Origin: Epinephelus fuscoguttatus
Lineage: Eukaryota > Chordata > Actinopteri > Perciformes > Serranidae
Direction of reading: 5' to 3'
Length of the DNA stretch: 64,000 nucleotides
Assembly: GCF_011397635.1 (NCBI RefSeq)
Contig: NC_064769.1
Span: 13,843,207-13,907,206, forward strand
Part shown: in pieces, positions 1 to 40,127 of the stretch
How the letters are laid out: each line of letters opens with the position of its first letter
Position numbering within the stretch: the first letter of the stretch is position 1
Position numbers and translations under genes: made by a program
The notes under the pieces: generated by a model
Seen by the model: only the letters and a program-made list of their open reading frames with translations
The model's database searches: none
What the model was told of the DNA's origin: nothing

Positions 1-305
1 TGTTATTATAGGTGCTCGTAGATCACCTGCAGCCAGGGACAGAGTTTGTAAAGATTTCAAATGACCCAATCTTTCTGAAAATGGAATAATTTCAGGGAAA
101 GAAAACATCAATGAGGGCTTAATGCTTGACTGTTTTATGCTCAAAAAAGGACTGTTGCTGTCAGCAGTGTGATGCGGTGTATTTGTTTGGGGACTAAACA
201 AAACTAAGGCCTTTATTCCAAAACCAGGCTCAGTGTGTTTATGTTAAAAAGAGAGTTATCTTTCCTCTGTTAACATCACTAAGTGTTTGCTGCTTCTTAT
301 TGCAG

Positions 306-17125: not shown

Positions 17126-18273
17126 TTATGTGTCTGATTCTCCTGGGAAGTTGGGGTTGCTGAAAGCAGGCTGCAACAGAAGAATGACACAGCTTAGCAT
17201 TTACACTGGCATAAAAATGTAACCATGTGTTCACACCAAATCATAACAGGTTCATAAATAACTCACCACATCAATGTGATTGGTTGTTCTGGCTCTTGTT
17301 GGCAGGCTCAAGTCTCTCAGTTTATACCCCTGAACACTGAAGAGGTAGAACAGCAGTCCTGCTATCAAGCTCAAAATTACAATGGTTCCAATGATCGCGC
17401 CGACTATCGCCCCTACATTTGTCCCTGTAACAGAGATACAGTGGACGTGTCAGCGGGGATGTTAAACATGTTTTTTCTTTGGTTGGAAAACCAGCAGAAG
17501 GTAAAAAAAAATAAAATGGTGAAAATAAGACATTGTAAGGAAACTGTATTTAGCACTTTGGCCTTGTTCAGACTGCCAGCACAAATCCTTTTTTTCTTTT
17601 GGCATATCCGGATTGTACCCAGATGAATTCTAGGCTGGGCTCATCCGGAGGGAATTGTAAAGCTGCAGCACCTTCGGATCAAAAGGGGTCAGATCAGGTG
17701 GTTTGGGCATCTCATTAGGATGCCTCCTGGGTGCCTCCCATTAGAGGTGTCCCTGACATGCCTATTGGTAGGAGGCCCCAGAACACGCTGAAGGGATTAT
17801 ATATCATATCTGGCCTGGGAACGCCTCAGGATCCCCCAGGAGGAGCTGGAAAGCGTTGCTGGGGAGAGGGACGACTGAAGTACTTCGCTCAGCCTGCTGG
17901 CCCCCTGACCCGGCCTGGATAAGCGCATGAAGATGGATGGAGGATTGTGAATGAATTTTAGTAAGTCTCAACAGCAAAAAACAGATGCCAAAAGATGGAC
18001 CTCTATTTTTCCTGCTTCTGTGTTTGAAAGCCACATCACCAGCATCGTTACCACAGCAATGCAGCGCATGCGGGTTGGTGATGTCTGGACACACAATTAA
18101 GAGTGCGGACAGTCTGTCTTCGACGTCTGATTTGAGAGACAATTCTGATTTGTCTTGAGTCTGAACATAGCCTTAGTCACATTTACTGTTACCTGGACCA
18201 GGATCCGGACCTGGACCTTGAGTTGGACCGTCAGTGGGGAAAACTGGCCTTGTGTTATTATCTGTTGTATAGT
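17126..18273 (-). other. Receptor stalk, transmembrane helix and cytoplasmic tail (residues 2087-2180)
   Basis: Exon 18193-18273 encodes a Gly/Pro-rich stalk (GPTQGPGPDPGP). Exon 17267-17424 encodes a hydrophobic helix (about 2117-2142, GAIVGAIIGTIVIL and on) and the start of the tail (KLRDLSLPTRAR). Exon 17126-17170 ends it with PAFSNPNFPGESDT and TAA. FSNPNF (2169-2174) fits an FxNPx[YF] endocytosis signal. The LINE fragment at 17630-17940 lies in the intron. A poly(A) candidate ATTAAA on the minus strand is at 16987-16992. Confidence 0.85.
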
Positions 18274-21200
18274 CTGAAAAAAGAGTTTCACACAGAGAAG
18301 GTGAAGTTAGAAGAAAGAAAATGTATTGGAAAATATTCTGAGAGTTTCAATAACCAAAAAACTGTTGACATGAGCCTGCAAAATACTAAAAAAAAAAAAA
18401 ATGCTTACACTGGCGGTGGCGGCATATAAATCCTCTTTTTTGAAGGCAGTTGTTGTCATTCCAGCGTCCGTCCTCGTACATCTCCACACAGTTTTCCTCA
18501 GCCACGTCCCCGGGGTGAAAGGCTGCATTGGGCTCGCCAGGAGCCCAGTTGAGGAAGCCCACAGATGTCCGATCCGTCCAGCCCCAGCCAACTAAAACAA
18601 ATCAAACACACAGGTCTCAGCATCAACAAAGGTTAGTGCACAAATATTCAAATATTACATGTAGATGCAAGTAGTCCCTGCCATCATTGTGTATTTCTAC
18701 ACTCACAGTTTCTGTCTCTGGTGAGGCCGATCCAGATGTTGTGATATTTGGTATGGTTGAGGTTCCGGATGAACTCGACCTCCGCTCTGCTGTGGATGGA
18801 CGCCAGCTCTGTCATGAATGACTGGCAGTAGTGCCGGGCGTTCGGCCAGGTGTAACCCTCCCTACCGTTGTACACAAAGTAACAGTAGCGGCCGTAGGGT
18901 TTCCAGAATGGCAGACACATCCCGTCACCAGGGGCGGGAGTCGGTGGTGGTTTCTCTGAAAGGCAGTATAAGTTACATCACCAACGCCTCAAGTTTTAGA
19001 CTGTAAAGGAAGTTTTTTTTTTGTGAAAGACTGACCAGAGAAAAGGAGGAGAAAAGCAGATGTCAGTGCTACACACCTGAAGAGATCTTGCAGATGTAGG
19101 GTTTAGCAATGTCACACTTGGTGTCATTCCAGGTCCCGTGGAAATGGGGTGAAGCGTGCATACTGACACAGCCCTCATCCTTAATGTTGCTGGGCTCTCC
19201 AGGTCCCCATTGAGTGAACAAAACTGGCCAGCCATCTGTCCACTGGTAGGTGCCGTCATCCTGCATTACAAGAAAATATTAGCATGTGATTCATGGTTTC
19301 ACCTCGGACGCGGAAATTCAGCACCACCTGCACCATGAACACCGAACAAGACAGCTTTTTTTAATTTGCAGGTAGTGTGGAGCACCTGGCGTCTGAGTCC
19401 GATCCAGCTGTCAGCTTTGCCCTGCAGGACCACTCCGGCCACGAAGGCCTGGTCGTAGCTCATGTCGATGCTGGTCAGGTGGCCTCCCTCCTGCTGGCAG
19501 GCCGTCTGAGCTGCGTCCCAGGTCGCCAGCTTCTCCACCAGCTTGTAGCAGTTCAGGTACCAGGAGATGTAGCCATCAGGGCAAGGGCTCTTGGTTGGAG
19601 GTGGAGGGGTGATGGTGCTTGCTGATGTAGAAGCAGAAGGAGAAATGGTTTGACATATGTTCGTTGCTGTGTGTTTTCTGTAATTTATTTGAGCAGAAAG
19701 AATAATTTAAGTGTTCACTGACATTTCTTCCTAGAGCAAGCGAAGCTGTAATTTTTGTGGCAGGCATCATCGTTCCACTTGCTGCTCATCACGTAGCTGT
19801 TAGTCATCGCTACGCAGTGTTCCTGTTGAGAATGACAAGAAAGCCTCAAGCTACACAACTATAAACATGAGCTTTATTAGCACGGAGTGCAGGTTTTAGT
19901 CCTGCCTGTAAAAAGATTCACAATATTTCCCACTTGCTTTGCTCAAGTTATCGTAAATAACTGTAGCAAATTTAAGTATCCTCACTGTTCCTCCTGCATT
20001 GTTGGGCTCATTGTCGTTCCAGTTCGTGTACAGCACAGGGCTGACCCCATCACTCCAGGCATACTGATTCTCCGCCACCTTATCTGACAGGCCGATCCAC
20101 GTGGGAAGCTCCAGGTCCCTCTGATAACTAGAAACAAAGTCTAGAGGGAAGGAGAGGATCAAAATATAGAGAGCAATCTCTTTGACCTGGAGCCACTGGA
20201 ATGTTGGTTCTCATAAGTTTAGCTTACCATTCTCATACTGGTTATCAATGACTGCCAGCTGTCCTCCCTGGTCTTTGCACCAATTCCGAGCAAATTTCCA
20301 GCTGCCTTTGATGTCATTTTTCTTCCCTTTGAACATGAAGCACTTGTTCTTAAAAATCATCCAACCTGGTGGCAAGAAAGGTAAAGAGCTTACTGTAGTG
20401 CAGCATGTCACAAAAATGTAATTGAAAAAGTCATTATTTGGTAATTCATAAAAGAAATAATTAAAAATCTAATACAGTATGTCATGAAAACTAAATTTGA
20501 AAAAGTCATACTATAGTACAGTAAATTAAGTAAAGTAAATTTACTAACTTTAATTAATGAGTCATCGGATAGTATCTCATAAAAACTTAAAAAGCCATAG
20601 TATAGTACAGAAAATTTAGTAAATTTAATTTTAAAAAAAGTCATGTCATATGTTATAAAAATTGTGATAACAATGTCATAGTACAGTATGTCATAAAAAT
20701 AAGTCATATTATACACTGTCATTAAGAATAGTATAGATTAATGTAAATAAAAAGTTGAAAGTATGACAAAATTTCGTAGTATGGTATCTCATAAAAATTC
20801 ATAATATAAAATGCCTTAAAATGTATAATGTGCCATGAAAAAGTCCTAAAAAGTCACGGTATAGTATGCCCTTAAAATGTCATAGAAATGTCTTAATATA
20901 TCATGCTATTAAAAATGTATAATGCGCCACAAACAAATACTAAAAAAGTCACAGTATATTGTACGTCATCAAAGTGTCATAAAACAGTTTAAAGAGTCAA
21001 AGTATTCTGTCATTAAAACAAGTCATAGTATAGTATGTCATTAAAAATCATAATGTGATATGCAAAAAAAGCCAAAACAAAATCCTTAAAAGGTCAAAAT
21101 ATAGTATGTCATAAAACATGTAATTAAAAAAAAGTCATTGTATGGTAAGTCATGAAAATTGAATTTAAAAAGTCATAGTATAGCACAGTAAACTTAGTAA

Positions 21201-24200
21201 ATTTAATTTAAAAATATCATAGTGCAGTATGTCATAAAAATAGGCCATAGTATACACTATGTCATGAAGAATACTATAGATCAATGTAAATATAAAAGTC
21301 AGAGTATGACATTAAATTTCATAGTATAGTATCTGATAAAAATTCATAATATAAAATGCCTGAAATGTATAATGTGCCATAAAAAAAGTCCTAAAACGTC
21401 ATAAAACAGTTTAAAGAGTCAAAGTATTGTATGTCATTAAAACATTAAAACAAGTGATAGTATAGTATGTCATTAAAAATAAATTCATAATGTGACATGC
21501 CAGAAAAAAAACATAAAAAATCCTAAAAAGGTCATAGTATAAGTCATAAAAACAAGTCACAGTATGTCAAAAAAGAAAACAGTAAAAGATGCCATAAAAA
21601 AGTACTTAAGAGAGAGTCTTGGTATAAAATGCCACAAAAATGTAAAAAAAAAAAAAAAAAAATCTAATTTAGTGCGTCACAAAAAATGTTGGTCTTTTCA
21701 TGGCTTTTTTTTTTAACTAATAAAAAATACATCACCAAACATATTTTCTAAAATATGACATACTTCTCTGTCTACATATACCCTGCTATCATTCTGCATG
21801 TTTCATGTTTATATGTAAGAAGTGTGTGTTACCTGCAGGACAGTGGCCCACCCAGGGCTGTGTGGGTGGAGGATGAGTGTGAGTATCTCCGGGGAACTTC
21901 TTACAGACGTAACCTGCTGCAGCCCGACCACAGTTGGCATCGTTCCATCCACCTTGACAAGCCAGATTTAATTGTAAATATCACCAACAGGGAGTCCAGA
22001 TCAGTAAACATGCACAATAATCAACAGATCTATATGGTCGTAAGTGTCCAATGAACGGTATTTGAATACCTTGATGTCTGTTCATCTGGACACACTGCTC
22101 CTCCCCGTTAGCATTGTTGGGCTCACCTGGAGCCCAGTGAGTGTATGTCACAGGTGACATGTCGACCCACCTGTGTGGATAAAACATGTCATCATATCCC
22201 AGCACTTGTGCGTCTCTAATCACAGCTTCACCACAGTTTAAAAGTATGAGCTGCACAAGATTATACAAATAATGTGCAGACGGTTACCCTTTAAATTCAC
22301 CTCAACTCTAATCATTTCCAAATATACATACATGTATTGTCCATTTGCAATGCCAAACATCCTCAGTCCAATCCAAGCTGCAGCAACCTGGCCCGTCCCC
22401 ACCTGGACGAGCAGCACAACACGACGCAAACATATTTCACTGTAACACGTTACAACATATTCTACAGTAAAGAAGTAAAAGCAGAAAAAGGCCCACCATG
22501 GTGTTAACGTATGCCTGTTCCTCGATGCTGAGGATGGAGACGAGTAAGGCCTCCTCATCATAGCAGCGCCTCATAGCTGTGTGGAAGTCGACTATGTCGG
22601 TGTCGTTGTAGTAATAGCAAATGTTGTTGTTCTTCCTCCAGCCAGGGTTAGTACCACAATCAGGAGCTGAGGGTCGAGACATGAGGAAACAATCATGAAG
22701 ATGGTATGATCGCCTTGTTATTTTCCTCCACAGCAAAAAAGCCTAATCCGCATTAACTTACATTACACTTCTCCCTATATAACTGACACTTAGTCATTTA
22801 CTCTATAGTGACCGATACATTGAGACGTCTGACACGTATGACTCTGAATCACTTGGCTGTAATTTTTGGATCTAGAAAATAGGAAGCAATGCATTGTGGG
22901 ACTGTTTGCAGACAGTAGTATACATGCTATTCTTTTTGCATTACATAGTGGGAAATTTTTAAAGGTCCAGTGTAGGATTTAGGGAGATATATCAGCAGAA
23001 ATTTAATAACTTCACTCCTGTAGTGTATTTTTCTCAGTAAGAATTTCTTTATTTTTGCCATACCATATTAATTAAAGCTGGGGTAGGCAGTTTTCTGAAA
23101 AAGGCCAAAAATAAACTGAAATTTAAAAAAAAAAAAAAACTCGCACGTCTCACCAGACACCCACAGGTGAGAAGCTGCATATCGCACATTCAACCAGCCC
23201 TTCCTGGCCCCATTCTCTCTGCTTATCAGACCACAAATGAGACAAGAACTACCTCGCTAGCCACCCCATGGTCCCTCCGCCTCACTCTGGGCTGCTGTGG
23301 ACTACTTCCCTGGGAGGAGAGCGGTCGGCTATTCTGGAGACGGACCCTCAGTCAGCAGCTGTAGCAACTTGAATCCAGCCTGTGCAGACCCCAGCACCCG
23401 GGGTGACCTGTTTAACAGCTGCAACAGTAAAGCCTGATTTATGGTCCTGCGTTAAATCAACAACGTCGCTACGTCGTAGGGTACGTGGCTATGCAGAAGG
23501 CTTGCGGTAGCCCCTGGCGTAGCCTGACGTGCACCTCCCCAAAATGTAACTACACGTCGAGGCGACACAGACCCAGCGCAGAAAGAGAGGGCTGTGATTG
23601 GTTTGCTTGGTAGCAACGCATTTCCGGTTCCGTATTTCCAGATTGCGACATCCCCGCCATCTTTAAACATCTTCTGTTGTGATGTAGATGTTGCAGTATT
23701 AAGGCCCATTTATACTCAACGTTCAATACGGATACGGATACGGACAGAGCCGTCTGTCCGTGCTCCGCGTTCATTTCTCTGTGACCGGAAAAGCTGGAAG
23801 CTAAACAAAGAATCAACTAGAGACGATGATAACCATTCAGGAAAGGAACGCAGCCTCCTACCGCTCTGGCGGTGAATTGCACCGTGACGAAATGGAGTGA
23901 CGGAGAAGTTCGAAGGGTTCACGACGGCGTCACGGCAACGATGTACGTACGTCGTAGGTACGCCGCAGGACCATAAATCAGGCTTGAGGTTGCTGATCCA
24001 GCGGGGGAGTCAGGGGTGGTCTGTTCCATGTGAGCTGGGGTTGGGCTGGCTGGATTTGGGTTGCTGCTGCTGCTAACTGGGGCTCCATCTCCACATTGAT
24101 ATGGCTGACACTGAGTCGAGTTTTATTTCGTTTTAGACTGTGTTTTTGGGTTGCTTGCAGTGTAGGCAGTTTCTGCAAATACTTTGTCTGCAGGATTCTT

Positions 24201-30200: not shown

Positions 30201-33200
30201 TACAGAACAGTGTTTATTTTTTGGTTAAATATAGATCATCAGTTGAGTATTGACTCCATATGATTTATAAGGAACAAGAAGTCAAAAGGCAACAAAACAC
30301 ACGGACAGGAAATTGCAGATGAAGATTATAAATGCAGAGAAATAAACAGTGTAGCACCACCTGATGAGTCACCCAGGTGTGGACAGATGTCATCACTCTT
30401 TCGTCCGTAGAAAGCCGAGTGGATGTTAATGACACTTTCAGGTGGACAGTGAAGAACAGCAGAAGAGTCCTGGCACACGAGCACCGTCATGAAACCTGCA
30501 GCAGGAGGGAGTTGCACATTAATTGTTTACTTAATGAAAAATTCAGTGCTGGTTGATGTCATTTGTAGATATATTTGTCATCTGAAGTGAAAATGTAAGC
30601 AATCACGTCAGATAGTAGGATACTGTTACCATCATGAGGTGGAGGAGGCTCAGGTGTGTTTCCTAAAAGAGAAAACATGAGTATAATGTTACAAACATGT
30701 ATTAACACTGTAAGTACTATCTTCTGTTTGCAGCAATGAAATCAATGTATTTCACCTTTCTTCTTACAGATGTACCCTCTTTTGTTCAAACAGTCGTCAT
30801 CGTTCCAGTAGCCATTGTTAATTAGTATAGACAGGCAGTCCTCACCGTAATGGTTGTCTGGATTACCTGTGAAGAAACATGAAGGAAGGGAATTTAGTTG
30901 TCTTTTTTTTAACAAGAAAATAATCCTCATGTTTTAATTCACTCAGAAATCATGCTGAACATATTTGGCTTTAAATTAACCTGCACTCCAGCGGATGTAT
31001 CTGAAAGGAGAGCCATCTGTCCACTCCCAGCCGCCTTCAGTGATGGAGTCATGGCCGCCCATCCACAGAGAGATACCGACGGGACTCAGCTGGATCACAC
31101 CTGAGAGGAAACGACAAAATACAAGTCAGGTCAAGTCAAGCTTATTAACAGATCTAGAGAGGTTTCTTTCTCCCAGAGTCCTTTCAGACTGGTAGAAAGT
31201 TTATAGTCTTTGTTGCACCTGTAACTACAACCAACAGTGATGTCATAGTGTCCTGGAGTTCACCTGTACAACACTGGAGCTAAGTTAGAAGTTAAACCAC
31301 TAGAGGGAGGCACAAACAAGATTTTCAGAAGGTGTTATGTTACTCTTTAAAGGTAAGATGTGCAGAATTTAAAAAATTTTCTTCATTGCCCCCTGGTGGT
31401 GGTAGCAAAAAAAAAAAAGCCACTGTGGCAGACACCAATGCACACTGCCACACCTCCTCTCATTACACACAGGAAAGAAACATAAACTAAACCAATTTTC
31501 ACCAGAATTGTCACTTTTCTAAAAACAAAAGCCATCAGAATCGCTTTAAAGACACTATAGTCACACAAAACTTTTACAGGTAGTTGCTTTAAAGCAACTA
31601 CAAAGTAAAAAGTAATAAAAGTTAAATTGGTTTATTGCTGGTATATTAAACTCTACACATTGGAGTTTAGATAGAGTACAACAGATTATTAGGGTCACTG
31701 CTAGAAAAAGCGGAGATTTAGAGAATTAAGTGGGGAAAATTTTGAAAAAATATTTTAAGAAAATTAACTATTCAAAAAAAATAAAGTTGAGAATACGAAA
31801 TAAGTCATAATTAGAAAGTCACATATGCTTTTTGTGCTATTTTCTCACAAAATTTCAACTTAATTCTCAAATCAATTTTTTCTCTAAACCAAGCTGATGG
31901 TCAACCGACGGTCGATATCAGTCTGTAGGTGAGCGTCCGTCACCCTAGTGTTTGTAGTGTGTTCCACATCACTGGCACTAGTCTGCCCTTGATGCCTTTT
32001 TTTGGCTGATTGAGCATGTTGAATCTACATCGGACGTAAATGAACCCTTTGGTGAATGAAATCAGTCTGAGTGGCAAATCAACTCAGCTGAGCTCTCTAG
32101 CAGAAACAATTTATATACAGTATCTTTTTATTGTTCAGTAGCACACATTATTAATGTGCTAACTGACTAACTAGCGTCTTGAACCCTTCTTGTCAGTCTC
32201 TGGATTCCCTTTTTGAATGGAGATTACAGACTACTGCCACCTACTGGCATGGAGAGTTATTTCCTCTTACGCAGGTGCAGAACATATGTGCCAGTTGCCC
32301 ATTGGCTGCAGTCTTTGTGGTGTGTTCAGGTGCAAGTTTTTGGCCAAGTGGCGACTTGAGGCAAAGTGACCGTCGGCCTTTGTCAGCAATAGTTCTTTGA
32401 TGTTAGTTTGGTGTGTTTGGGCCTCTAAAGACATAACAGCATGATGCAATATAGTCCTTTAACATGCCTATATTCAACACGGTATACTCAAGTGATCTGT
32501 TATGCATCCACCTGTCAATATTCTCATGCAAAAAAAAAGAATGATCACAAATTAAAAAAACGTCATTAAATATAATTGGGATGAGTGCAAAAATAGAAGA
32601 AACATTACATTTGGAGTAAAGATGAAAAGGTCACACCTTGTATGAAGGCCTGTTCGAAGGGATCAGTGATGCTGACAAGGTCTCCTCCCTGGTTGACGCA
32701 GTCAGCCCGGGCCTCTGCCCACGTCCTCATCGACAGGTAGTTAAACAGGTAGCAGAAGTCGTTGAAAGGATCGGCCATCCAAGCGCCACACTTCTCATTC
32801 CACCCTGTAACAAACACAACAGTCCATGCATGTTGATATATGGATAAACACACACATGTTATGAGTCTCAGATCATGCTCCAAGTGTAGTGATCATTGTA
32901 GCATAAAGTTAACCTGGTCCAGATGTTGGGGGCTGGGGAGGAGGTCCTTGTCCCTTGGCTGTAGAAGAAAAAACATCTCAAATATTAATACAAAATACAA
33001 TATTTCTATGACACAAGAGACATATGAATAAAAACTGTAGTGGATCAGACCTTTTTTGCAGATGAACTCCTTTGTGTAGGTGCAGTAAATATCATTGAGC
33101 GTGCCAGGATGTGAGTGAGTCATCCCTGTGAGGTGTGCACAGTCCTCATTGTCAGCCCAGTTGTCTGGCTGGTTAGGCCCCCATGGGAGGAGGTCCTGAG

Positions 33201-36200
33201 ATCCAAAGAAAAACATGTTGCTTCATCGTGAGTAGGACCCTACAATACCAGAGTGACAACACTTCCACTGACTCCTGTAGCATGCTGAAGTTAAGCCTCA
33301 CGGGCCCTCAAGTGGGGCATGAGGGCATTACCTTTCCGACCAGAAAACCCATTCACTTACAGTATGTCTGACGTACACTTGCTTGTAAATTGATGAAAAC
33401 GGCCTTGTTTTTACTTTTACATGTCTTGATCATATTAAGTCATGCTTATAATTTGTTTATTTCAAAATGTAGAGTAACATTATGGTAGACAACTATTTGG
33501 GTTTTTTTACCTGTAAACGGGTCACCGATGCTCCTATTATGGTAGATTATGGTAGATTATGCTTTTAGGTTTGCTTGACTTTGGAAACGCACAAGAATTC
33601 CTGGTCGGCAGCAATGCAGCAATACTGAAGTTCAGTCAGTTCTTGGTCGGATATGCAACGTGCTATCCCGCCACTAGAGGGCACGTGACCAACTTTCCTC
33701 TTGACCAATGTGTGTCGCTACTCCGGTATTGTAGGGTCCTAATCGTGAGCAGCTTCACAATCATACTGCAGCTTTTTTCCATCATGATACATTGAGGAAA
33801 AAACAGGATCGTCAAAAGGATCCCATGAGTTTTAAATATTTGTGATCATAGGGATGTTCAATGTTTTATCTAATTTCAAATTTATATCATTTACAGTAAT
33901 GCGCATCACACAATTTGTTCGTGTCTTTATCACTTACTGCAGGAGTGCCATCGCTGTATACCCACTGGCCTTCAACAGCGACATCACGCAGACCCACCCA
34001 AGCTTCCCCTGGCATGTGAGCTGCAGAAAAAAAACAACAGATGTATGTTCACAACGTTCATATTATTTCTCAATTAATTATTTTATGGAGATTGGATGAA
34101 CTAGAGTGCTTTCTCAGTCGCTCACCGATTAGGAAGCTTAGCTCCTCCTGTGAGTGGAAGCTGGCCAGGTGAGCCTGCTCTTTCATACAGTGAGCCTCGG
34201 CATCATCCCAGTTCTTCACTGACTCAGTCTCAAACTGGTAGCAGAAGTCCCCATACAACAAATATCCAGGGTCACAGTGGAAATCTGGAGCAAAAAAAAA
34301 GTTTCACATTTATTACCACAACTTTCACTAGACAGTGGGGGGGGGGGGACGACATGAAGTCTGACTGACCAGGGGTTGAAGTTGGTTTGGGGTTCTGTCC
34401 ACCGGTCATCTCGCATATGTAACCCAGGCTCTTGAAGCAGGTGGTTGTTTCCCATTTGCCCTCATAATTTCCTGGAAGATAACATAAACTGATGTTGGTT
34501 TTTCAATGCCAGCCTTAGCTCAAAACATACAGAAGTGTCAACTTAGCACCAGAGTGGAAGTTTCTACCTGTGAAGATTTGTCCACAGTCCCAGAAGTGTT
34601 CAGTGTTTCTGGGCCAACCAGGGCCATAGTTACTGAAAGTAACCTCGGTTTTATCCACCCATTTGAAATGCCCATCCTGGTCTTTATCTGGTGACATCAC
34701 AAACCGCAAAATGAACGGAAAGGGCATTTTCACAAATCTCTTGTGTTGTAAAGACAGTTTACTGAGTCACAGTGAGCATCAGAACATACAGCGGGTAGAG
34801 TACCTGATAAACCGATCCAGATGTCGGGAATGTCTATGTGGTGAAAGTCTGGAAGGTTCCCATTTATGAAGAACTGCTCTTCTTGACTGCACACGAGGAA
34901 CAAGACACAAATGACAGACAAAGTAAGATCTTCACTGTTCTCCGGTACTGCTTGATTACTCTGCTTTTAAGCCCCTTTTAGCTCACTGTTTTGATTTTCC
35001 ATAGTACGCAGCAATTTTACGTGAAAAGGCTCTGATAACCCGACTATACGCTACCTACCCAGCAACAAATGAAGTTTGTTAGTGAACTTGGTGGAGCATT
35101 TAGCAGCTAAAGAGACAGATAGTTCCCTTAGGAGTGGGTTGAGACCAAAAACAGAGCTAACAGAATAAATATTGGTGATTCATCTAAATGTTCTGTGTCT
35201 GCTTGATGTATAAATAAGCAACAGTTAGGTAAAACATTCACCATAGCAACTTTATAAGGCAATTATCTTTCAATGTTGTGTTTAATCTTGTTCCACTAGT
35301 CCAAGTGCCCTAAAAACAACAAATGCAGCTTTAACTTTTGTGATAAAATCAATGAAATATTTATCTGTAATTGGCCAAAACGTAATGAAGCCATAAGTCA
35401 GTAAACTGACTCAAGTTATGTCTTTAAAATTGGCTTAGGTGACATTAGCCACATTACAGAAATACTTAATCCACAAAACGACCATTCTGAACTCATGAAG
35501 GAAAACTTTGTTTTTCCTTCATGCATCCGTGGTCAAGAATCCTTCAACTGACAAAATTCTTGATGAATTGGAGTGAAAGGGGACCACGTTTAACAACAGC
35601 AAAATTATATCAAAGCATCTGTTTGCAAACTCTCACACAGTTTTTGTAGAGTAATCCAAGTCTCATTTATCCAGTCCTATGCTCAGTATGCTCATGTTGA
35701 AGTCTGCTCAGACTTTAAATGCACATGCTTGCCCAGATGCACTCCTCCTCCATGCATTAGACTGTTTATGCGATATGCTTTTAAACATAAATGCAGATGT
35801 TTAGGAAGTACTGAGAATATGACTGGATAAATGAGACATGTATTATACCACATGACGTTGAATGAGAGTTTTTAGGAGATGTTTTTATATAGTTTTGCTG
35901 TTGTTAAACGCGGTCCCCTATGTCTTCAGTTCATCAAGAACAGTCCTCATTCTTAAACTCTTTGCTCATCGTGGAGGCATGTGAGAAAACCAACGTTTTT
36001 TTCATGAATTTGACATAACACAGGGTGAGTTATTCATTTACAAATGATCATTTTGTGGGCGAAGTATTCCTTTACGGGCGGTGGTCATAGCAAGGAACAT
36101 TTTACTGCTTATGAATTTAACTTTTTATTTGTAAGATGACGATTGTGCCATTTCTTCTTTCAAGTTACACTGCAAAATATCTGCCATTTTGTTCTTTCCT

Positions 36201-39200
36201 ACCTGTTTATGATCAGCAGGTAGGCCCCCATATCAGAGCACTTGGTGTAGGCCTCGTGCCAGGTGGTCAACAGATTGATATTACTGACCATCCAGTAACA
36301 ATTGCCTGCGAAGCTCCGCCAGCCAGGAGGGCAAATGGCTGAAGGGGTTTTAAAGAAACAGTAGAAAAAGGTTAGAGGGAAAAGCAAAGAAACTTCACAA
36401 CATTATTATACTTTTTTATGATGAAAATAAGAGATATCCTGTCATCCTTACTGTTTACTGGTCGTTTGCACATGTAAGGACGCTCATATCTGCACACATG
36501 GGATCTCCATTTCCCAAATTCATCTGTTGAATCTTTGATGATTGCAGCACACGAGCCGGCCTGCGCATCACTGTTGGAGAACATGTGTAAACCTTGATTG
36601 CACAAATTACTATTTAAATTAAAATGACGAGTAAATAATATAATATCTTACCCAGCAGGTTCATTGCTGGCCCAGTTTGTGTACCCTAACTGAACAGCAT
36701 CAGACCAGGTGTACTGAGTGTTTCCCGCTTCAACTTGACATGAAATCTTGTTGCATTTCTGGAGAAGCAAACCCCAAACTCAGATTCATTCACCACATAT
36801 TCCTGTCTAATATCAAACAACAAAGATGCAGGTGGGCTTCTTAATTTATTGCCCCACTTTGTTCCTCTCACCAGTGTGGAAAGCCCGATCCAGAGATCAA
36901 CCCATGATGGGTCCAGTGTTCCTGTGATGTACTGCTCTTCACCTGCTGAGGTGATCGACACCAGGTCTCCTCCCTCCTGAATACAGTCATGTCTCGCTGC
37001 CACCCAGCTCTTCCGAGTCTCTGCTTTCAGCTTGTAGCAGTTGGAGTTGTACGGACTCCAGCCGTTTGCAGAGTCACACTGTGGGGCCGGATTCGCTAAA
37101 GAGCAGAAAAGAAAATAGGTTTAAAATGTACAGTGGTGGAATGTAACTAAGTACATTTACTCAAGCACTGTACTTATACTCAGGTGCAAGGTATTTGTAC
37201 TTAACTTTAGTATTTCCATTTTATGCAGCTTTATACTACTTACTCTGATACAGTTATGTGACAGCTTTAGTCAGTTTTCAGATGAAGAAGAAGCAAAAGA
37301 AAAACCAGAAGAAAACGAAGCAGAAAATGCAGTGGCAGAGGCAGAAGAAGAAGCAGAAGAAGCAGAAATGGATGAAGCAGCAGCAGAAGAAGATGAAGAA
37401 GAAGAAGGAGAAGAAACCTAATAGCCTAATATTTTCAGCTTTACAAAACAACATCAAAATCTATAACAGGATGCTGGTTGGTGGACTTACAGTTGACATG
37501 TTTGCAGATGTATTTCCTCTTAACATTGCAGTTCTCATCATTCCATTGTCCGTTGCTCGATCCTACCACCTGACCACAGTCCTCCCCATCACCCCAGTTA
37601 TCAGGCTGACCTGGCATCCAGTATCTGGAACAGGGAAGAGACCATTTCGGATCCTTCAGTAAAAACACTTTACACATCTGTGAGTGTGCAGCTTTCACAC
37701 TTTTATTCATGTATAAATGAATTTAATGCTCTCTCTGATATTGAAACAGTATTACATACGCTATGTATGGTAAAAAAGGACTCCCATCACTCCACTCCCA
37801 GACATTTTCTGTAACTTGGTCATTCAGGCCAATCCAGAAGATCTCTGTGCCAATTTGTGTCCTCACCCACAACTAGAGATAAGACATTGAAAAAATACAT
37901 GAACCTAGTGTGTAAAATGTTGTATCGAATCGTTTCTGGACGCTTGTGTGTGTGTTGTCTCACCCTCTCATGAATGTCCTGAATGCTCATGAGGTTGCTT
38001 CGCTGCCCCAAACAAAACGCGTTAGCCTCACTCCAAGTCTTTAGATCAATTGAAAAGAAGTAACATTTATTCTCATTCTCCCTCCAGCCTTGCGGACACT
38101 GGCAATGTGCTGAAAAAACAACACAACACACATATATGAACAAAACATGATACACTGAGTGGAAAAATACATTTTAAAAAAGTCATTGCATTACAAAAAG
38201 TCATGCTCTTTTCACTGCACTACCATGCTGCTCAATGCTTCTCAGTTAACATGTATTAAAAACAGGGGTCTGCTCATCACAGTTATACACTGTTTAAAGA
38301 TTTTTTAAATATGTGGACATAGGTAGAATTGATGCATCATCAGGCAGATGACATAAACAAATAAAAGACATAACAAAATAACAATTCTCAGTCAGAAAGA
38401 ACAGCATAATAAAAGTCCTGCCATTACTTTTCATGGTTGATAAGTAAAAAAGTTGCCCAGTTGGTGCGGAATTTCACAACCTGGTTTATCGTTTGAATGC
38501 CCATCAATCATAAAAGTCCCGTGAAAGATCCAAAGTCCAGCCATGTCAGTCAACTCTCATACAGATCTTTGGGTAATGTTTGACTTTAACAACGTTAACA
38601 AGACTATACAATCACATGATTTGCACACATCTGTAATGGGTTGAAAGACCACAAGAACACCACTACTGATGCAAAGCCGAAGTTAAGGGAGTGTTTTCCA
38701 CCTCACAAGTGACTATACGTCTGAGAAGATGCCCTAATGTGCTGTGTGAGGCCTCAGAAACATTAAATGTCGGATACTAAAATCTGCTATCAGTCCTTAA
38801 AAGAATAAACCATTACTCTTTTTGGCTTGGATATCAGCTGATACAAAATATTTCAGAGTATTTAAACTGCTAGTTTACCTGCCAGTTAAATAATTTCTTA
38901 AGTAAAAAAAACACAATTTCTTTATAAAGACATTAGTAAAACAAAATGTGGCAGTTAGGTCACACTGTGTTTAGAGATATTTTAGTTGATTTTACAAGAG
39001 ATTACAACAGAAAGTAGCACCCCACATTGAATGTAAAATAGTTAAACAACAAAGTACAAAAGGTTCAGAAGTCTCGTGAATGATACATATTTTATTTCTC
39101 TGTTACAATGAACAGAGTATTTGCGGATGGTTTACATGAAAAAAACAAACAATAGAGCTTCTTCTGTGATACCTATTAGTAAATATACTCTGATTACTGC

Positions 39201-40127
39201 TGAATCAATTATACATTTCAAGAGCCTTTTTGATTTTTACTGTGGGAATTAATCAACATGAAATCTTTTTTATTACTTTTATGGCAAAAACAAAATTTAT
39301 ATGCAACAAGATTCTGGTTCACACAATCTCCATCTCCCATCTCCATCTTGGGTCTGCACATCATGTGCTCCATGAACTTAGAATAATTTCTTCAGAATAT
39401 AGCAGAAATGAAAGTAATTTCATAAGGTCACAACGGCCTCACATTAAAACATGTATTAATGTTTTTAGATTTTTTTTTTTTTAGATATTTTTAGATCCTA
39501 TTTCTTATTCATTCATTCATCTTCTAACCGCTTCATCCTCTTGAGGGTCGCGGGGGGCCGGAGCCTATCCCAGCTACATCGGGCGAGAGGCGGGGTACAC
39601 CCTGGACAGGTCGCCAGACTATCGCAGGGCTGACACATAGAGACAAACAACCATTCACGCTCACATTCACGCCTACGGACAATTTAGAGTTATCAATTAA
39701 CTTAGTCCCCAATCTGCATGTCTTTGGACTGTGGGAGGAAGCCGGAGTGCCCGGAGAGAACCCACGCTGACACGGGGAGAACATGCAAACTCCACACAGA
39801 AGGGCTCCCACGCCCGGGATCGAACCGGCAACCCTCTTGCTGTGAGGCGAGAGTGCTAACCACCACACCACAGTGCCGCCCCCCTATTTCTTATGTTTCC
39901 GCAAAGTAAATACACTTGTGTCTTTATTTTGAGTATTCCCAGATTAAAACAAGTGCTCTCAGGTTCACGCTTTGACCTCTTCATGGTCACCGTGGTGATA
40001 AATTTAACTCTCAGGCTTCAAAGAGTCATAAGCACAATAAAAAAAAGTCATCAAAAAGAGACCTACCGCAAGCAAGAAGAGCAGCAAAGCTGAGCAGCTG
40101 CAGAAGCATTCTTTGTCTTCTGTCCAT
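17126..40127 (-). CDS. Large transmembrane lectin receptor: 12 CTLDs plus SUEL, F5/8C and LCCL domains (2180 aa, 50 exons)
   Basis: Probable cell-surface endocytic pattern or glycan receptor. Exons in transcript order: 40067-40127, 37964-38109, 37760-37872, 37491-37624, 36872-37095, 36652-36758, 36452-36570, 36203-36338, 34804-34886, 34568-34687, 34370-34471, 34126-34284, 33938-34020, 33051-33195, 32914-32958, 32637-32804, 30981-31100, 30756-30866, 30630-30662, 30361-30495, 30053-30199, 29779-29913, 28574-28731, 28321-28465, 28152-28206, 27970-28036, 27742-27875, 27608-27651, 27298-27471, 26412-26566, 26179-26292, 25938-26053, 25389-25543, 25097-25302, 24814-24991, 24488-24712, 22497-22666, 22332-22402, 22070-22170, 21833-21952, 20228-20365, 19986-20140, 19723-19822, 19386-19621, 19077-19260, 18707-18955, 18409-18591, 18193-18273, 17267-17424, 17126-17170 (TAA). 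All GT-AG; lengths total 6543 nt with no internal stop. One signal peptide and one transmembrane helix argue for a single gene. It is mannose-receptor-like but has no R-type or FN2 domain. Not a gene I can name. Confidence 0.88.
17630..17940 (+). mobile_element. 3' end of a Rex-type (Rex3/RTE-like) LINE, decayed
   Basis: Broken frames read GHLIRMPPGCLPLEV, RDYISYLAWERL and IPQEELESVAGERDD, the familiar C-terminal stretch of fish non-LTR reverse transcriptases. After a Pro-rich end comes AAGATGGATGGA, the start of a (GATG)n-type tail. The 5' part is absent and the frame has stops and a deletion, so this is a dead 5'-truncated copy. It is antisense to the host receptor gene, inside its intron. 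Confidence 0.75.
18409..18955 (-). other. Receptor CTLD12 (residues 1943-2086), EPN type
   Basis: Two exons. EKPPPTPAPGDGMC linker, YGRYCYF, IWIGLTRD, WTDR, EPN (2045-2047) with a long insertion after it, WND (2069-2071), FICR. Canonical mannose-type calcium ligands next to the membrane. Confidence 0.87.
19077..19621 (-). other. Receptor CTLD11 (residues 1803-1942), EPS variant
   Basis: Two exons. A Pro/Thr linker, then CPDGYISWYLNCYK, WIGLR, WTDG, EPS (1903-1905), WND (1925-1927), YICK. Ser for Asn in the third triplet position departs from the mannose consensus; weak or altered sugar binding is likely. Confidence 0.87.
19723..20365 (-). other. Receptor CTLD10 (residues about 1668-1802), EPN type
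   Basis: Three exons. GWMIFKNKCFMF, WIGLSD, WSDG, EPN (1762-1764), WND (1785-1787), FACSRKK. Canonical mannose-type site. The intron before it holds the 1.35-kb AT-rich minisatellite. Confidence 0.87.
20400..21750. repeat. AT-rich degenerate minisatellite in a receptor intron
   Basis: About 1.35 kb is built of variants of a short unit around AAAGTCATAGTATAGTATG and GTCATAAAAAT. Longer blocks recur: the stretch at about 20725-20860 comes back at about 21262-21400 with point changes and small indels, so there is a higher-order period of about 0.54 kb. It ends in A and T homopolymer runs. It lies in the intron between CTLD9 and CTLD10 and fills most of it. Confidence 0.9.
21833..22666 (-). other. 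Receptor CTLD9 (residues 1518 to about 1665), EPN type
   Basis: Four exons. CGTNPGWRKNNNICYYY, AWIGL, WAPGEPN (EPN 1614-1616), WND (1634-1636), YVCKK. Canonical mannose-type calcium site. The last exon ends with the first cysteine of CTLD10 (WVGHCPA). Confidence 0.87.
23076..24424. mobile_element. TTAA-flanked non-autonomous DNA element, 1.35 kb
   Basis: Both ends carry AGCTGGGGTAGGCA in inverse orientation. The left flank is TTAA; the right flank is TGAA, probably a mutated TTAA. No transposase frame was found. The middle (23431-23984) is a separate fold-back element inserted later. The whole sits in the intron between CTLD8 and CTLD9 of the receptor. A fragment at about 22960-23040 (GGTCCAGTGTAGGATTTAGG) just to the left is another old dispersed repeat. 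Confidence 0.65.
23431..23984. mobile_element. Nested fold-back MITE (AGCCTGATTTATGGTCCTGCG ends)
   Basis: The inverted ends AGCCTGATTTATGGTCCTGC are exact, and the arms continue imperfectly with CGTCGTAGG-type GC-rich blocks, unlike the AT-rich neighbourhood. The flanking triplets are TAA on the left and TGA on the right, so a 3-bp target duplication of Harbinger type is possible but not proven. Base composition shifts sharply at both borders. Confidence 0.75.
24488..24991 (-). other. Receptor CTLD8 core (residues about 1366-1517), EPN type
   Basis: Two exons plus the end of the preceding one. WIGL, WSDG, EPN (1461-1463), WWND (1484-1487) and WICM. A canonical mannose-type site. A Pro-rich linker (PPEPPPPLP) follows. 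The next intron is 1.8 kb and is mostly a 1.35-kb TTAA-flanked element. Confidence 0.87.
25097..26053 (-). other. Receptor CTLD7 (residues about 1218-1350), QPD with WDD
   Basis: Three exons. YGYACYW, WWIGL, QPD (1313-1315, split by an intron), WDD (1333-1335) and FVCEK. It is the only QPD domain in the C-terminal CTLD block. The last exon goes on through a Pro/Thr linker (PPTKPPTPPPV) into the first strand of CTLD8 (CTEGWTGQPHFRYCYK). Confidence 0.84.
25650..25807. mobile_element. Short TTAA-flanked fold-back MITE
   Basis: TTAA stands on both sides. The left arm AATTCACCCCACAAATGACC and the complementary right arm (AAATGATCTTTTGTATATCA read backwards) pair imperfectly. The left arm also resembles the right end of the 35458-36071 element, so both probably belong to one family. 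It lies in the intron between the first two CTLD7 exons. Confidence 0.6.
26179..27471 (-). other. Receptor CTLD6 (residues 1077 to about 1217), EPN type
   Basis: Three exons. GPDWYEFGDFCYKPF, WTGLND, EPN (1169-1171), WND (1190-1192), YICK. EPN with WND is the mannose/fucose/GlcNAc-type calcium site, as in CTLD4 of the mannose receptor. The last exon also carries the opening Cys-Pro of CTLD7, so the border between CTLD6 and CTLD7 is not at an intron. The 0.7-kb intron 26567-27297 holds two degraded dispersed repeats. Confidence 0.87.
26692..26990. repeat. Two adjoining decayed dispersed repeats in a receptor intron
   Basis: 26692-26780 (CAATTAGTTGATTAATCAAT) belongs to a palindromic fish repeat also seen at about 57866-58040. 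26855-26990 (GGTACTTTTAATACTTTAGG, ending CCTTCACCACTGGG) belongs to the TACTTTTACTTAAGT-type family also seen at 37127-37260 and 63820-63960. None of them codes. Confidence 0.55.
27608..28206 (-). other. Receptor LCCL domain (residues about 977-1076)
   Basis: Four small exons. CPAHC, then RVYGTSIY, NTCAAAIHAGVI, GGDCTLL and LYLGSTRNGITS follow the LCCL pattern known from Limulus factor C, cochlin and CRISPLD proteins. In those proteins it is tied to recognition of lipopolysaccharide or other microbial surfaces. The start (VTCGHKPNFNF) is less typical. Confidence 0.85.
28819..29627. mobile_element. TTAA-flanked fold-back MITE, 809 bp including a nested SINE
   Basis: TTAA is at 28815-28818 and 29628-29631. 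The ends AGGAATAAGCC and GGCGTATTCCT are imperfect inverses, and TCATTTTCATATTGAGA on the left pairs with TCTCAATATGAAAATGA on the right. A SINE (about 28926-29270) interrupts it. Both are in the F5/8C intron. Confidence 0.8.
28926..29270 (+). mobile_element. tRNA-derived SINE nested in a MITE
   Basis: The tRNA-like head has an A-box-like TAGCTCAGTCCATAGG (28933-28948) and a B box AGTTCGAGTCC (28984-28994). The body ends with GAATTTCCCCTC, GGGGGATTAATAAAGT and an A-rich tail, a LINE-derived type of 3' end common in fish SINEs. I could not fix target duplications. It is not a functional tRNA gene. Confidence 0.8.
30053..30495 (-). other. Receptor SUEL/rhamnose-binding lectin domain (residues 737-830)
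   Basis: Two exons. Eight cysteines (744, 753, 774, 784, 797, 803, 814, 827) match the usual eight of this domain. The hallmark motifs are all present: YGR (766-768), DPC (812-814) and KYL (819-821). In fish egg rhamnose-binding lectins and latrophilins this fold binds L-rhamnose/galactose or protein ligands. Finding it in the middle of a mannose-receptor-like chain is unusual. Confidence 0.88.
30630..30662 (-). other. Receptor Pro-rich mini-exon before the SUEL domain
   Basis: A 33-nt phase 1-1 exon encodes GNTPEPPPPHD. It bridges the first CTLD block and the SUEL lectin domain. It can be skipped without shifting the frame. Confidence 0.7.
30756..32804 (-). other. Receptor CTLD5 (residues 593-725), NPD triplet
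   Basis: Three exons separated by introns of about 1.5 kb and 0.1 kb. Landmarks: DFCYLF, the unusual LWMGG in place of WIGL, WEW, NPD (690-692), WND (709-711), YICKK. The NPD triplet, not EPN or QPD, makes its specificity unpredictable. The WND calcium ligands are intact. Confidence 0.85.
32914..32958 (-). other. Receptor Pro-rich linker exon between CTLD4 and CTLD5
   Basis: A 45-nt phase 1-1 exon encodes 15 residues (AKGQGPPPQPPTSGP). The acceptor has a strong polypyrimidine tract. The donor GTTAAC is weak, so the exon may be skipped, which would keep the frame. Confidence 0.7.
33051..34284 (-). other. Receptor CTLD4 (residues 449-577), QPD type
   Basis: Three exons. CDPGYLLYGDFCYQF starts the domain and WVGL follows. 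QPD is at residues 538-540, and LND (562-564) stands where WND is usual, keeping the Asn-Asp calcium ligands. It ends FICKK. Galactose-type binding is possible. The 33233-33741 hAT-like MITE lies in the second intron. The last donor (GTCTGA) is weak but keeps the frame. Confidence 0.83.
33233..33741. mobile_element. hAT-type MITE, 509 bp, with perfect 8-bp target duplication
   Basis: Inverted ends TAGGACCCTACAATACC match at both sides. ATCGTGAG occurs at 33225-33232 and again at 33742-33749, an exact 8-bp duplication as hAT transposases make. There is no coding frame. It lies in the CTLD4 intron 33196-33937. Confidence 0.9.
34370..36338 (-). other. Receptor CTLD3 (residues 302-448), degenerate calcium site
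   Basis: Four exons, with a 1.3-kb intron after the first that holds a fold-back MITE. ICPPGWRSFAGNCYW, IWIGL and YICE mark the fold. There is no EPN/QPD triplet (GWPRN lies at that place) and no WND (WET instead). The tail of the domain runs into a Pro/Thr-rich linker. Confidence 0.83.
35458..36071. mobile_element. Fold-back MITE, 614 bp, TTAC on both sides
   Basis: The left arm (AGAAATACTTAATCCAC, then AAACGACCATT) pairs with the right arm (AATGATCATTTTGTGGGCG, AAGTATTCCT). Internal blocks also mirror one another (TGATATAATTTTGCTG-like sequence around 35600 against TATAGTTTTGCTGTTG around 35897). The flanks are TTAC at 35454-35457 and 36072-36075. Located in the CTLD3 intron 34887-36202. 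Confidence 0.75.
36452..37095 (-). other. Receptor CTLD2 (residues 152-301), degenerate calcium site
   Basis: Three exons. The fold landmarks are present (GWSPYNSNCYK, LWIGL, YTW, and the final cysteine in MCK). The sugar triplet reads EPA, followed by GD, and the WND motif is replaced by WRS. The principal calcium/sugar site is therefore probably lost. It may serve as a spacer or bind protein. Confidence 0.85.
37127..37262. repeat. Dispersed fish repeat fragment (CAGTGGTGGAATGTAACTAAG type)
   Basis: The stretch begins ACAGTGGTGGAATGTAACTA and goes on with CATTTACTCAAGCACTGTAC and TTATACTACTTACTCTG. The same family shows at 26855-26990 and 63820-63960. It is non-coding and intronic. Confidence 0.6.
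37281..37417 (+). repeat. Polypurine tract rich in GAA/GCA, intronic
   Basis: About 137 bases are almost pure purine with scattered C on the plus strand, built from GAAGAA and GCAGAA units, right next to a dispersed repeat. One frame would give an all-acidic peptide and another an all-basic one, as expected of a microsatellite. It sits between CTLD1 and CTLD2 of the receptor, on the template-opposite strand. Confidence 0.8.
37491..38109 (-). other. Receptor CTLD1 (residues 21-151), QPD type
   Basis: Three exons. The domain begins CQCPQGW, has the WIGL core in exon 3, then QPD (residues 113-115) and WND (134-136), and ends with YICK. QPD with WND is the calcium-site pattern that in the C-type lectin family favours galactose or GalNAc over mannose. 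All cysteines expected for a long-form CTLD are present. Sugar preference is inferred from the triplet only. Confidence 0.88.
39509..39882 (-). mobile_element. tRNA-derived SINE with perfect 12-bp target duplication
   Basis: Read on the minus strand it starts GGGGCGGCACTGTGGTG, has A box TGGTTAGCACTC and B box GGTTCGATCCC, and ends with a GAATGAATGA tail. CCTATTTCTTAT is found at 39497-39508 and 39883-39894, an exact target-site duplication. It lies in receptor intron 1. The rest of that intron (38110-40066) shows only AT-rich sequence. Confidence 0.9.
40067..40127 (-). other. Receptor exon 1: start codon and signal peptide
   Basis: The ATG at 40125-40127 opens a 20-residue stretch: basic MDRRQR, then hydrophobic MLLQLLSFAALLAC, and a split Ala codon into CTLD1. 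This is a good type I signal peptide, so the mature protein would begin close to the first CTLD. Upstream the frame is not open with another ATG, which decides the start. A splice acceptor (CTGCTTTCAG) ending at 40306 suggests a 5' leader exon of about 40128-40305, with transcription starting further upstream. Confidence 0.85.

Follow-up and report, generated by a model that had tools for sequence, protein, structure and literature searches.

A 12-CTLD membrane receptor of ray-finned fish with a SUEL-discoidin-LCCL core, probably an ancient relative of the mannose receptors

The grouper Epinephelus fuscoguttatus carries a gene for a protein in which 12 CTLDs are arranged around a core of SUEL, F5/8C and LCCL domains. 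We consider it probable that this is one gene, that its product is a type I multivalent endocytic receptor of the scavenger or pattern-recognition kind, and that it represents the ray-finned-fish form of a 12-CTLD receptor older than the split between protostomes and deuterostomes. In this reading the mannose-receptor family is homologous to CTLD5-12, collinearly so in MRC1, and the protein is neither an invention of fish nor a DEC-205 fusion. As far as our searches show, the bilaterian age of the 12-CTLD receptor and the collinearity between it and the mannose receptors are new within the literature searched. They provide a testable account of how the mannose-receptor family may have arisen; its members are major endocytic receptors, among them PLA2R, which is described in the literature as the major autoantigen of membranous nephropathy.

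Results and Discussion

A gene of 50 exons encodes the grouper protein

The window, by which we mean the whole stretch of 64,000 nucleotides analysed, contains the gene on its minus strand, from an ATG at 40127 to a stop codon ending at 17126, a span of about 23 kb. Its 50 exons form one open frame and are separated by 49 introns of 81 to 1957 bases, all with GT-AG borders (Table 1). The spliced translation equals, letter for letter, the database protein P0001 of Epinephelus fuscoguttatus (2180 amino acids, labelled "macrophage mannose receptor 1"), showing that the exon number, the protein length and the end coordinates given in a preliminary description of this DNA were exact. The exon chain was built by choosing intervals, followed by hand correction at LCCL and CTLD9; the splice weights and codon table were approximate and served only to steer the search. 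A donor at 24449 adds 13 residues (2193 amino acids) and differs from the database, whereas the donor at 24488 gives exactly the 2180 residues of P0001. The 2193-residue version was the one used in the Pfam search and in the homologue search (120 matches listed). Phase-1 introns flank SUEL, F5/8C and LCCL, each domain on its own, and such borders are the usual sign of exchangeable modules.

Four homologues of 2165-2172 amino acids, known by 'lgn' labels (P0038, P0045, P0049 and P0058), have their whole coding sequence uninterrupted on contigs of 6969, 6835, 6844 and 8566 bases, respectively. Set against the 23-kb grouper gene, intronless contigs of 6835-8566 bases point to spliced transcripts (or retrocopies), and from their shortness we infer that they represent cDNA-type evidence.

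Table 1. Features of the receptor gene and its surroundings in the window
Feature	Position	Strand	Exons and evidence
Exon 1, start codon and signal peptide MDRRQRMLLQLLSFAALLAC	40067-40127	-	identical in P0001
CTLD1, QPD/WND	37491-38109	-	exons 38109-37964, 37872-37760, 37624-37491
CTLD2, Ca-site motif not conserved	36452-37095	-	exons 37095-36872, 36758-36652, 36570-36452
CTLD3, Ca-site motif not conserved	34370-36338	-	exons 36338-36203, 34886-34804, 34687-34568, 34471-34370
CTLD4, QPD/LND	33051-34284	-	exons 34284-34126, 34020-33938, 33195-33051
45-base linker exon, CTLD4 to CTLD5	32914-32958	-	in P0001
CTLD5, NPD/WND, counterpart of mannose-receptor CTLD1	30756-32804	-	exons 32804-32637, 31100-30981, 30866-30756
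33-base linker exon, upstream of SUEL	30630-30662	-	exon chain
SUEL lectin domain	30053-30495	-	exons 30495-30361, 30199-30053; Pfam E 5.6e-14
F5/8 type C (discoidin)	28321-29913	-	exons 29913-29779, 28731-28574, 28465-28321; Pfam E 3.8e-27
LCCL	27608-28206	-	exons 28206-28152, 28036-27970, 27875-27742, 27651-27608; Pfam E 3.6e-22
CTLD6, EPN/WND	26179-27471	-	exons 27471-27298, 26566-26412, 26292-26179; final exon also opens CTLD7
CTLD7, QPD/WDD	25097-26053	-	exons 26053-25938, 25543-25389, 25302-25097; final exon also opens CTLD8
CTLD8, EPN/WND	24488-24991	-	exons 24991-24814, 24712-24488; start in preceding exon; donor 24488
CTLD9, EPN/WND	21833-22666	-	exons 22666-22497, 22402-22332, 22170-22070, 21952-21833
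CTLD10, EPN/WND	19723-20365	-	exons 20365-20228, 20140-19986, 19822-19723
CTLD11, EPS/WND	19077-19621	-	exons 19621-19386, 19260-19077
CTLD12, EPN/WND	18409-18955	-	exons 18955-18707, 18591-18409
Juxtamembrane linker exon	18193-18273	-	in P0001
Transmembrane helix and start of cytoplasmic tail	17267-17424	-	sequence
Last coding exon, tail PAFSNPNFPGESDT and stop, FxNPNF motif	17126-17170	-	motif in 55/58 canonical homologues
AF-4 family gene, low end of window	198-1169	+	Pfam
BACK-Kelch gene, other side of receptor gene	49136-49513	-	Pfam
SDA1-like piece	58327-58716	-	27.0 bits, just below Pfam cut-off 27.8
Tc1-type transposase, 367-residue uninterrupted frame	55032-56135	-	DDE_3 and HTH_Tnp_Tc3_2

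The protein combines two CTLD blocks with a SUEL-F5/8C-LCCL core

The order along the protein is signal peptide, five CTLDs, SUEL, F5/8C, LCCL, seven CTLDs, transmembrane helix and tail. The domain order had been read from the DNA alone and was borne out by the Pfam search of the protein, which found all domains with scores exceeding the Pfam cut-offs, with five Lectin_C stretches in residues 1-736 (E 5.2e-103) and seven behind the core (E 1.7e-141). The signal peptide and the transmembrane helix, both seen in the sequence, give a type I membrane layout with a short tail carrying FSNPNF. SUEL aligns with L-rhamnose-binding lectins and latrophilins, and F5/8C with neuropilins and coagulation factors V and VIII. 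In the Pfam search, the exon interval 36872-37095 of CTLD2 was also assigned to the poxvirus A33R family (31.8 bits against a cut-off of 22.5), a label that many homologues receive as well.

Like the mannose-receptor family (MRC1, MRC2/Endo180, PLA2R1 and LY75/DEC-205), the grouper protein is a type I multi-CTLD receptor. It differs from that family in having no CysR head, no FN2 domain, 12 CTLDs, split into five and seven, instead of 8-10, and the SUEL-F5/8C-LCCL core behind CTLD5, and the distinction from CysR-FN2 mannose receptors drawn earlier is thereby upheld. Pfam searches of the whole protein in three pieces gave no R-type (CysR) lectin domain at E 0.1, and no PF00040 (FN2) match was found by Pfam in the protein. 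The fish entry named "macrophage mannose receptor 1" is not the MRC1 of CysR-FN2-8-CTLD layout, a difference that matters for fish-immunity work using that name.

The same domain order recurs in other ray-finned fish

By our own domain profiles, 58 of the 120 homologues listed have exactly the order of five CTLDs, SUEL, F5/8C, LCCL and seven CTLDs; these, together with the four intronless contigs that hold the whole protein and appear to be transcripts, support the initial view that one gene is involved. The other 62 comprise 35 Syngnathus proteins of different order, 23 other predictions from fish, either shorter or altered, and four proteins from non-fish species (Biomphalaria, Nematostella, Styela and Clavelina). 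Those of the 58 that carry a species name all belong to ray-finned fish and range from sturgeon, eel and bonytongues up to percomorphs. The preliminary description had suggested looking for the same order in other fishes, gar, coelacanth and lamprey; other ray-finned fish have it, and among the species-named matches of two word-based searches (120 of 121 listed in one) this core was found in no shark, coelacanth, lungfish, lamprey or tetrapod. Frog matches in the second homologue search were factor VIII-like, and no Fugu protein stood among the species-named matches of the homologue search (120 of 121 listed).

The pipefish genus Syngnathus has a rearranged form. Its proteins are represented by 44 clusters (24 from typhle, 18 from scovelli and two from acus), a number inflated by isoforms; P0079, P0087, P0088 and P0145 are examples, with 40 more clusters. 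A tree of the core that included 15 other fish proteins places the Syngnathus clusters in a single group next to the canonical proteins of seahorse and Nerophis. Scored with the fish position profiles, all 44 have CTLDs of types 2, 4 and 5 only ahead of SUEL-F5/8C-LCCL and a single CTLD of type 6 behind it. The 2-4-5 unit is present in two to seven complete copies, in some proteins with an incomplete first unit, giving up to 22 CTLDs. Many of these proteins open with a signal-peptide-like stretch, as judged by eye and hydrophobicity, and hydrophobicity revealed no membrane segment behind the last domain. Six clusters carry a galectin label. This tailless, repeat-amplified form met with no earlier description in the literature searched, and its expansion runs in the opposite direction to the contraction of mannose-receptor families described for syngnathids (PMC9245644).

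Site motifs and tail suggest glycan capture and endocytosis

CTLD6, 8, 9, 10 and 12 keep EPN in 50-58 and WND in 53-58 of the 58 canonical fish proteins; EPN and WND are the motifs of a mannose-type Ca2+ site. Across the same proteins CTLD1, 4 and 7 have QPD, CTLD5 has NPD and CTLD11 has EPS or EPT, and the site is not conserved in CTLD2 and 3. The tail motif FxNPNF is present in 55 of the 58, the remaining three being one FSNANY and two divergent ends. Elsewhere FxNP tails occur in tunicates (FDNPVV, FENPVI, FDNPIV), in the annelid Owenia (FDNPAY) and in seven of nine MRC1-type proteins. FxNPNF and FxNP tails resemble FxNPxY, an endocytosis signal.

The grouper SUEL shares YGR and DPC...KYLE with L-rhamnose-binding lectins (CSL3) and the SUEL of latrophilin, from which it differs in being a single SUEL inside a membrane receptor. 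The triplet CEG, found in gar, reads CEL in eel and CQD in grouper, and the stretch ahead of DPC is altered in grouper compared with rhamnose-binding lectins; the changed residues lie near what we take to be the sugar-contact site of those lectins. Because of the change from CEG to CQD and the altered stretch ahead of DPC, rhamnose binding by the grouper SUEL is doubtful.

The EPN/WND sites and the FxNPNF tail, together with the precedent of Akhirin, whose LCCL domain is described as binding bacteria (PMC12839204), favour multivalent glycan capture and endocytosis. Judged from these motifs, the likely function is Ca2+-dependent capture and endocytosis of microbes or glycoproteins. Ca2+-dependent binding of mannose-, fucose- or GlcNAc-type glycans would fall to the membrane-proximal CTLD6, 8, 9, 10 and 12, and the N-terminal block and the core could provide additional contacts, whether with glycans, with membranes or with bacterial surfaces. 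The tail would recruit endocytic adaptors so that the cargo is internalised, with a putative role in immunity or clearance. The earlier suggestion of a fish pattern-recognition or clearance receptor is plausible on this basis.

A role in homeostatic clearance or matrix uptake, like that of Endo180, is in our estimate possible but less probable than one in immune pattern recognition. The mannose receptor and Endo180 are reported to take up collagen, and the mannose receptor to scavenge released enzymes. Conservation across the 58 proteins is highest in CTLD5, 6 and 9 (mean identity to grouper of 0.81), as would fit an endogenous ligand. Varied non-self glycans, on the other hand, would be well served by the several intact EPN sites, and CTLD1, 2, 4 and 10 are more variable (0.65-0.68).

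Tunicate and annelid proteins share the 12-CTLD plan

The 5+core+7 layout was also found outside fish. Three tunicate proteins, P0118 and P0124 of Styela clava and P0119 of Clavelina, resemble the grouper protein in having discoidins and LCCL between five and seven CTLDs and an FxNP tail; P0119 is incomplete at its N-terminus, with one CTLD ahead of the core. The 5+7 plan of P0124 recurs in P0122. By our own profiles P0118 has three discoidin domains ahead of LCCL, where Pfam gives two F5/8C stretches and a kringle. The tunicate 12-CTLD proteins differ from grouper in lacking a SUEL match and in having a kringle (P0118 and P0119), an FN2 within CTLD7 (by eye) and a trefoil behind CTLD12. In Owenia fusiformis, P0125 has three F5/8C domains between five and seven CTLDs, its CTLDs matching by position, and the FDNPAY tail. 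It differs in having WSC and two kringle stretches, the best between CTLD3 and CTLD4, and Pfam at E 0.001 finds neither SUEL nor LCCL in it. Among the bilaterian relatives, SUEL was found only in fish and LCCL only in fish and tunicates. Three LCCL domains each were seen, by our own profiles, in the bacterial RHS-repeat proteins P0136-P0138 (two Pseudoteredinibacter).

For the comparison of CTLD order we built one CTLD profile per position from the 58 fish proteins and double-centred the scores, because profile F10 scores high on everything. The same position was picked for 12 of 12 CTLDs in P0118 and in P0124, for eight of 12 in P0122 and for nine of 12 in Owenia, where tunicate profiles gave 10 of 12. 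The diagonal sums of these four proteins were each reached by none of 20000 column permutations. Raw best-match mapping gave a noisy picture, with 11/12 from Styela to grouper and 10/12 in the reverse direction, and 9/12 each way between Styela and sturgeon. In a tree computed for 100 CTLDs, the fish, tunicate and annelid members of positions 3, 5, 7, 8, 11 and 12 group in exact clades (support 62-99). The best clade for each position was picked afterwards by overlap with the expected set; none of the 12 holds a member from a wrong position, six positions miss members, and position 2 misses all three fish.

The simplest reading of these sequences is that annelids and chordates share an ancestor which already had a 12-CTLD receptor with a discoidin core, the protostome side being represented by one annelid sequence. 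The shrimp protein P0126, with 14 CTLDs, is partly collinear (12/1000 permutations with fish profiles, 0/1000 with tunicate profiles). In Manila clam, the 13 'mannose receptors' RpMR1-13 include CLECT (1-14 copies), FA58C and kringle, and RpMR1-6 respond to Vibrio (PMC12321717). Compared by domain content, they share this CTLD, FA58C and kringle repertoire with the 12-CTLD relatives; the passages of that paper at hand propose no 12-CTLD ancestor.

MRC1-type proteins are collinear with CTLD5-12

The MRC1-type set consisted of nine proteins with eight CTLDs each (P0127-P0135), eight of them named as fish; they are close relatives and not independent of one another. All nine fit best at offset 4, with their CTLD1-8 in order on CTLD5-12, by fish and tunicate profiles alike. 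With fish profiles the fit was reached by 0/20000 permutations in eight proteins and 1/20000 in one; with tunicate profiles the counts were 0/20000 in seven and 2 and 10 in the other two. The monotone version of the test on P0129 gave 2/1000 and 0/1000. Single MRC1 domains were less regular: with fish profiles six of eight picked the predicted position, and tunicate profiles gave lower numbers (four of eight in P0129).

Eight-CTLD windows from Nematostella, shrimp and two pipefish proteins served as the control, in 54 tests. In 51 of them, the observed sum was equalled or exceeded by 50 or more of the 2000 permutations. The three lower values, all at offset 4, came from Nematostella CTLD4-11 with fish profiles (43) and from shrimp CTLD7-14 with fish (45) and tunicate (3) profiles, and weak true collinearity is possible behind them.

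In the CTLD tree, MRC1 CTLD1, 3, 4, 7 and 8 fall inside the clades of CTLD5, 7, 8, 11 and 12 (five of eight), and MRC1 CTLD2, 5 and 6 lie outside the predicted clades (positions 6, 9 and 10). The best match of grouper CTLD5 is to residues ~200-350 of PLA2R, LY75, MRC1, MRC2 and the chicken IgY receptor, which we take to be their first CTLD. Compared with solved structures, CTLD8 matched mixed CTLDs, with no clean mapping to CTLD4 of PLA2R or the IgY receptor. In a concatenated, unrooted tree MRC1 joins Owenia (95.8/93), which is the best topology; the topology test rejected MRC1 with tunicates (AU 0.003) and did not reject MRC1 with fish (AU 0.157). For avian MRC1 genes, PMC4229073 reports an absence of domain reassortment among the CTLDs.

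We propose, as an account with an even chance of being right, that MRC1, MRC2, PLA2R1 and LY75 have as their ancestor a bilaterian endocytic receptor with 12 CTLDs, which lost CTLD1-4 and the core and gained the CysR-FN2 head. The alternative would be a sister relationship, with the mannose-receptor family having the shorter array. Ray-finned fish would have kept the full type and tetrapods lost it, and Syngnathus would have turned it into a probably secreted family of the form [CTLD2-CTLD4-CTLD5]x2-7, SUEL-F5/8C-LCCL, CTLD6, in some members with galectin.

The reverse course, in which the eight-CTLD mannose-receptor layout came first and was extended to the 12-CTLD type by four CTLDs at the front and a core placed behind the old CTLD1, seems to us unlikely. 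It would agree with a root on the MRC1 branch, where the unrooted concatenated tree, in which MRC1 groups with Owenia, may have it, but the 12-CTLD plan is found in annelid, tunicate and fish, whereas eight of the nine 8-CTLD matches are from fish, the query not having been designed for such proteins elsewhere.

We regard it as very improbable that the 5+7 arrays of fish, tunicates and Owenia are independent products of domain shuffling. CTLD, F5/8C, kringle, WSC and SUEL are widely shuffled domains, and the Nematostella protein P0114 shows how similar a protein can look: five CTLDs (3+2 around F5/8C and laminin-G), SUEL, six CTLDs, three F5/8C, SEA and a tail with FDNPISF. The order of its CTLDs shows no clear relation (107/1000 permutations with fish profiles, 35/1000 with tunicate profiles), and we do not claim it as an older relative. 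Against shuffling stand the positional identity of the CTLDs, with 0/20000 permutations for the four invertebrate-type proteins tested, and the position clades in the CTLD tree.

The orphan DEC-205-FUSE of Fugu shares the CTLD, FA58C and LCCL layout

A protein of Fugu rubripes named DEC-205-FUSE was predicted by Zelensky and Gready in 2004 (PMC514892), with five CTLDs, FA58C and LCCL, and seven (v.3 assembly) to 10 CTLDs. According to the available passages of that paper it was a GenScan prediction of about 2000 residues with small introns, with no cDNA and no human orthologue, placed in an unclassified group and viewed by the authors as a DEC205-like protein fused with another CTLD-containing gene; the word SUEL is absent from the text of the paper as available. 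Compared by description and not by sequence, the grouper protein has this layout of five CTLDs, FA58C and LCCL, and at least seven CTLDs. The SUEL domain, the tail motif and the relatives in other species, which the passages of PMC514892 do not contain, are added here. We recognised no other description of this domain order beyond DEC-205-FUSE in the literature searched. The statement that no such vertebrate protein had been described has to be withdrawn in view of DEC-205-FUSE and of the database entry "macrophage mannose receptor 1", and the orphan of 2004 can be given an identity as a fish member of a little-known receptor type.

Least probable of all is that two adjacent genes, one DEC-205-like and one encoding other CTLDs, were misjoined by prediction or fused in one lineage: PMC514892 lists the look of a DEC205 fusion, without cDNA, and both blocks are CTLD arrays, but four intronless contigs hold the complete protein, the same order recurs in 58 of 120 listed homologues and the 5+core+7 plan in tunicates and an annelid, and the protein has no CysR or FN2 head. 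Since that plan occurs in tunicates and an annelid with position-matched CTLDs, and MRC1 fits CTLD5-12, the sequences make it probable that the grouper protein is a relative of the mannose receptors as old as the bilaterians, and not a fusion.

Surroundings of the gene

Beyond the receptor gene, the window contains an AF-4 family gene, a BACK-Kelch gene, an SDA1-like piece and a Tc1-type transposase (Table 1). The AF-4 and BACK-Kelch pair presumably corresponds to the human neighbours AFF1 and KLHL8, and with the SDA1-like piece we take them to be the neighbours found at human 4q21-22. A purine-rich GAA/AGA tandem repeat at 37280-37415, within an intron of the receptor gene, produces a long acidic open reading frame on the plus strand that is probably no gene.
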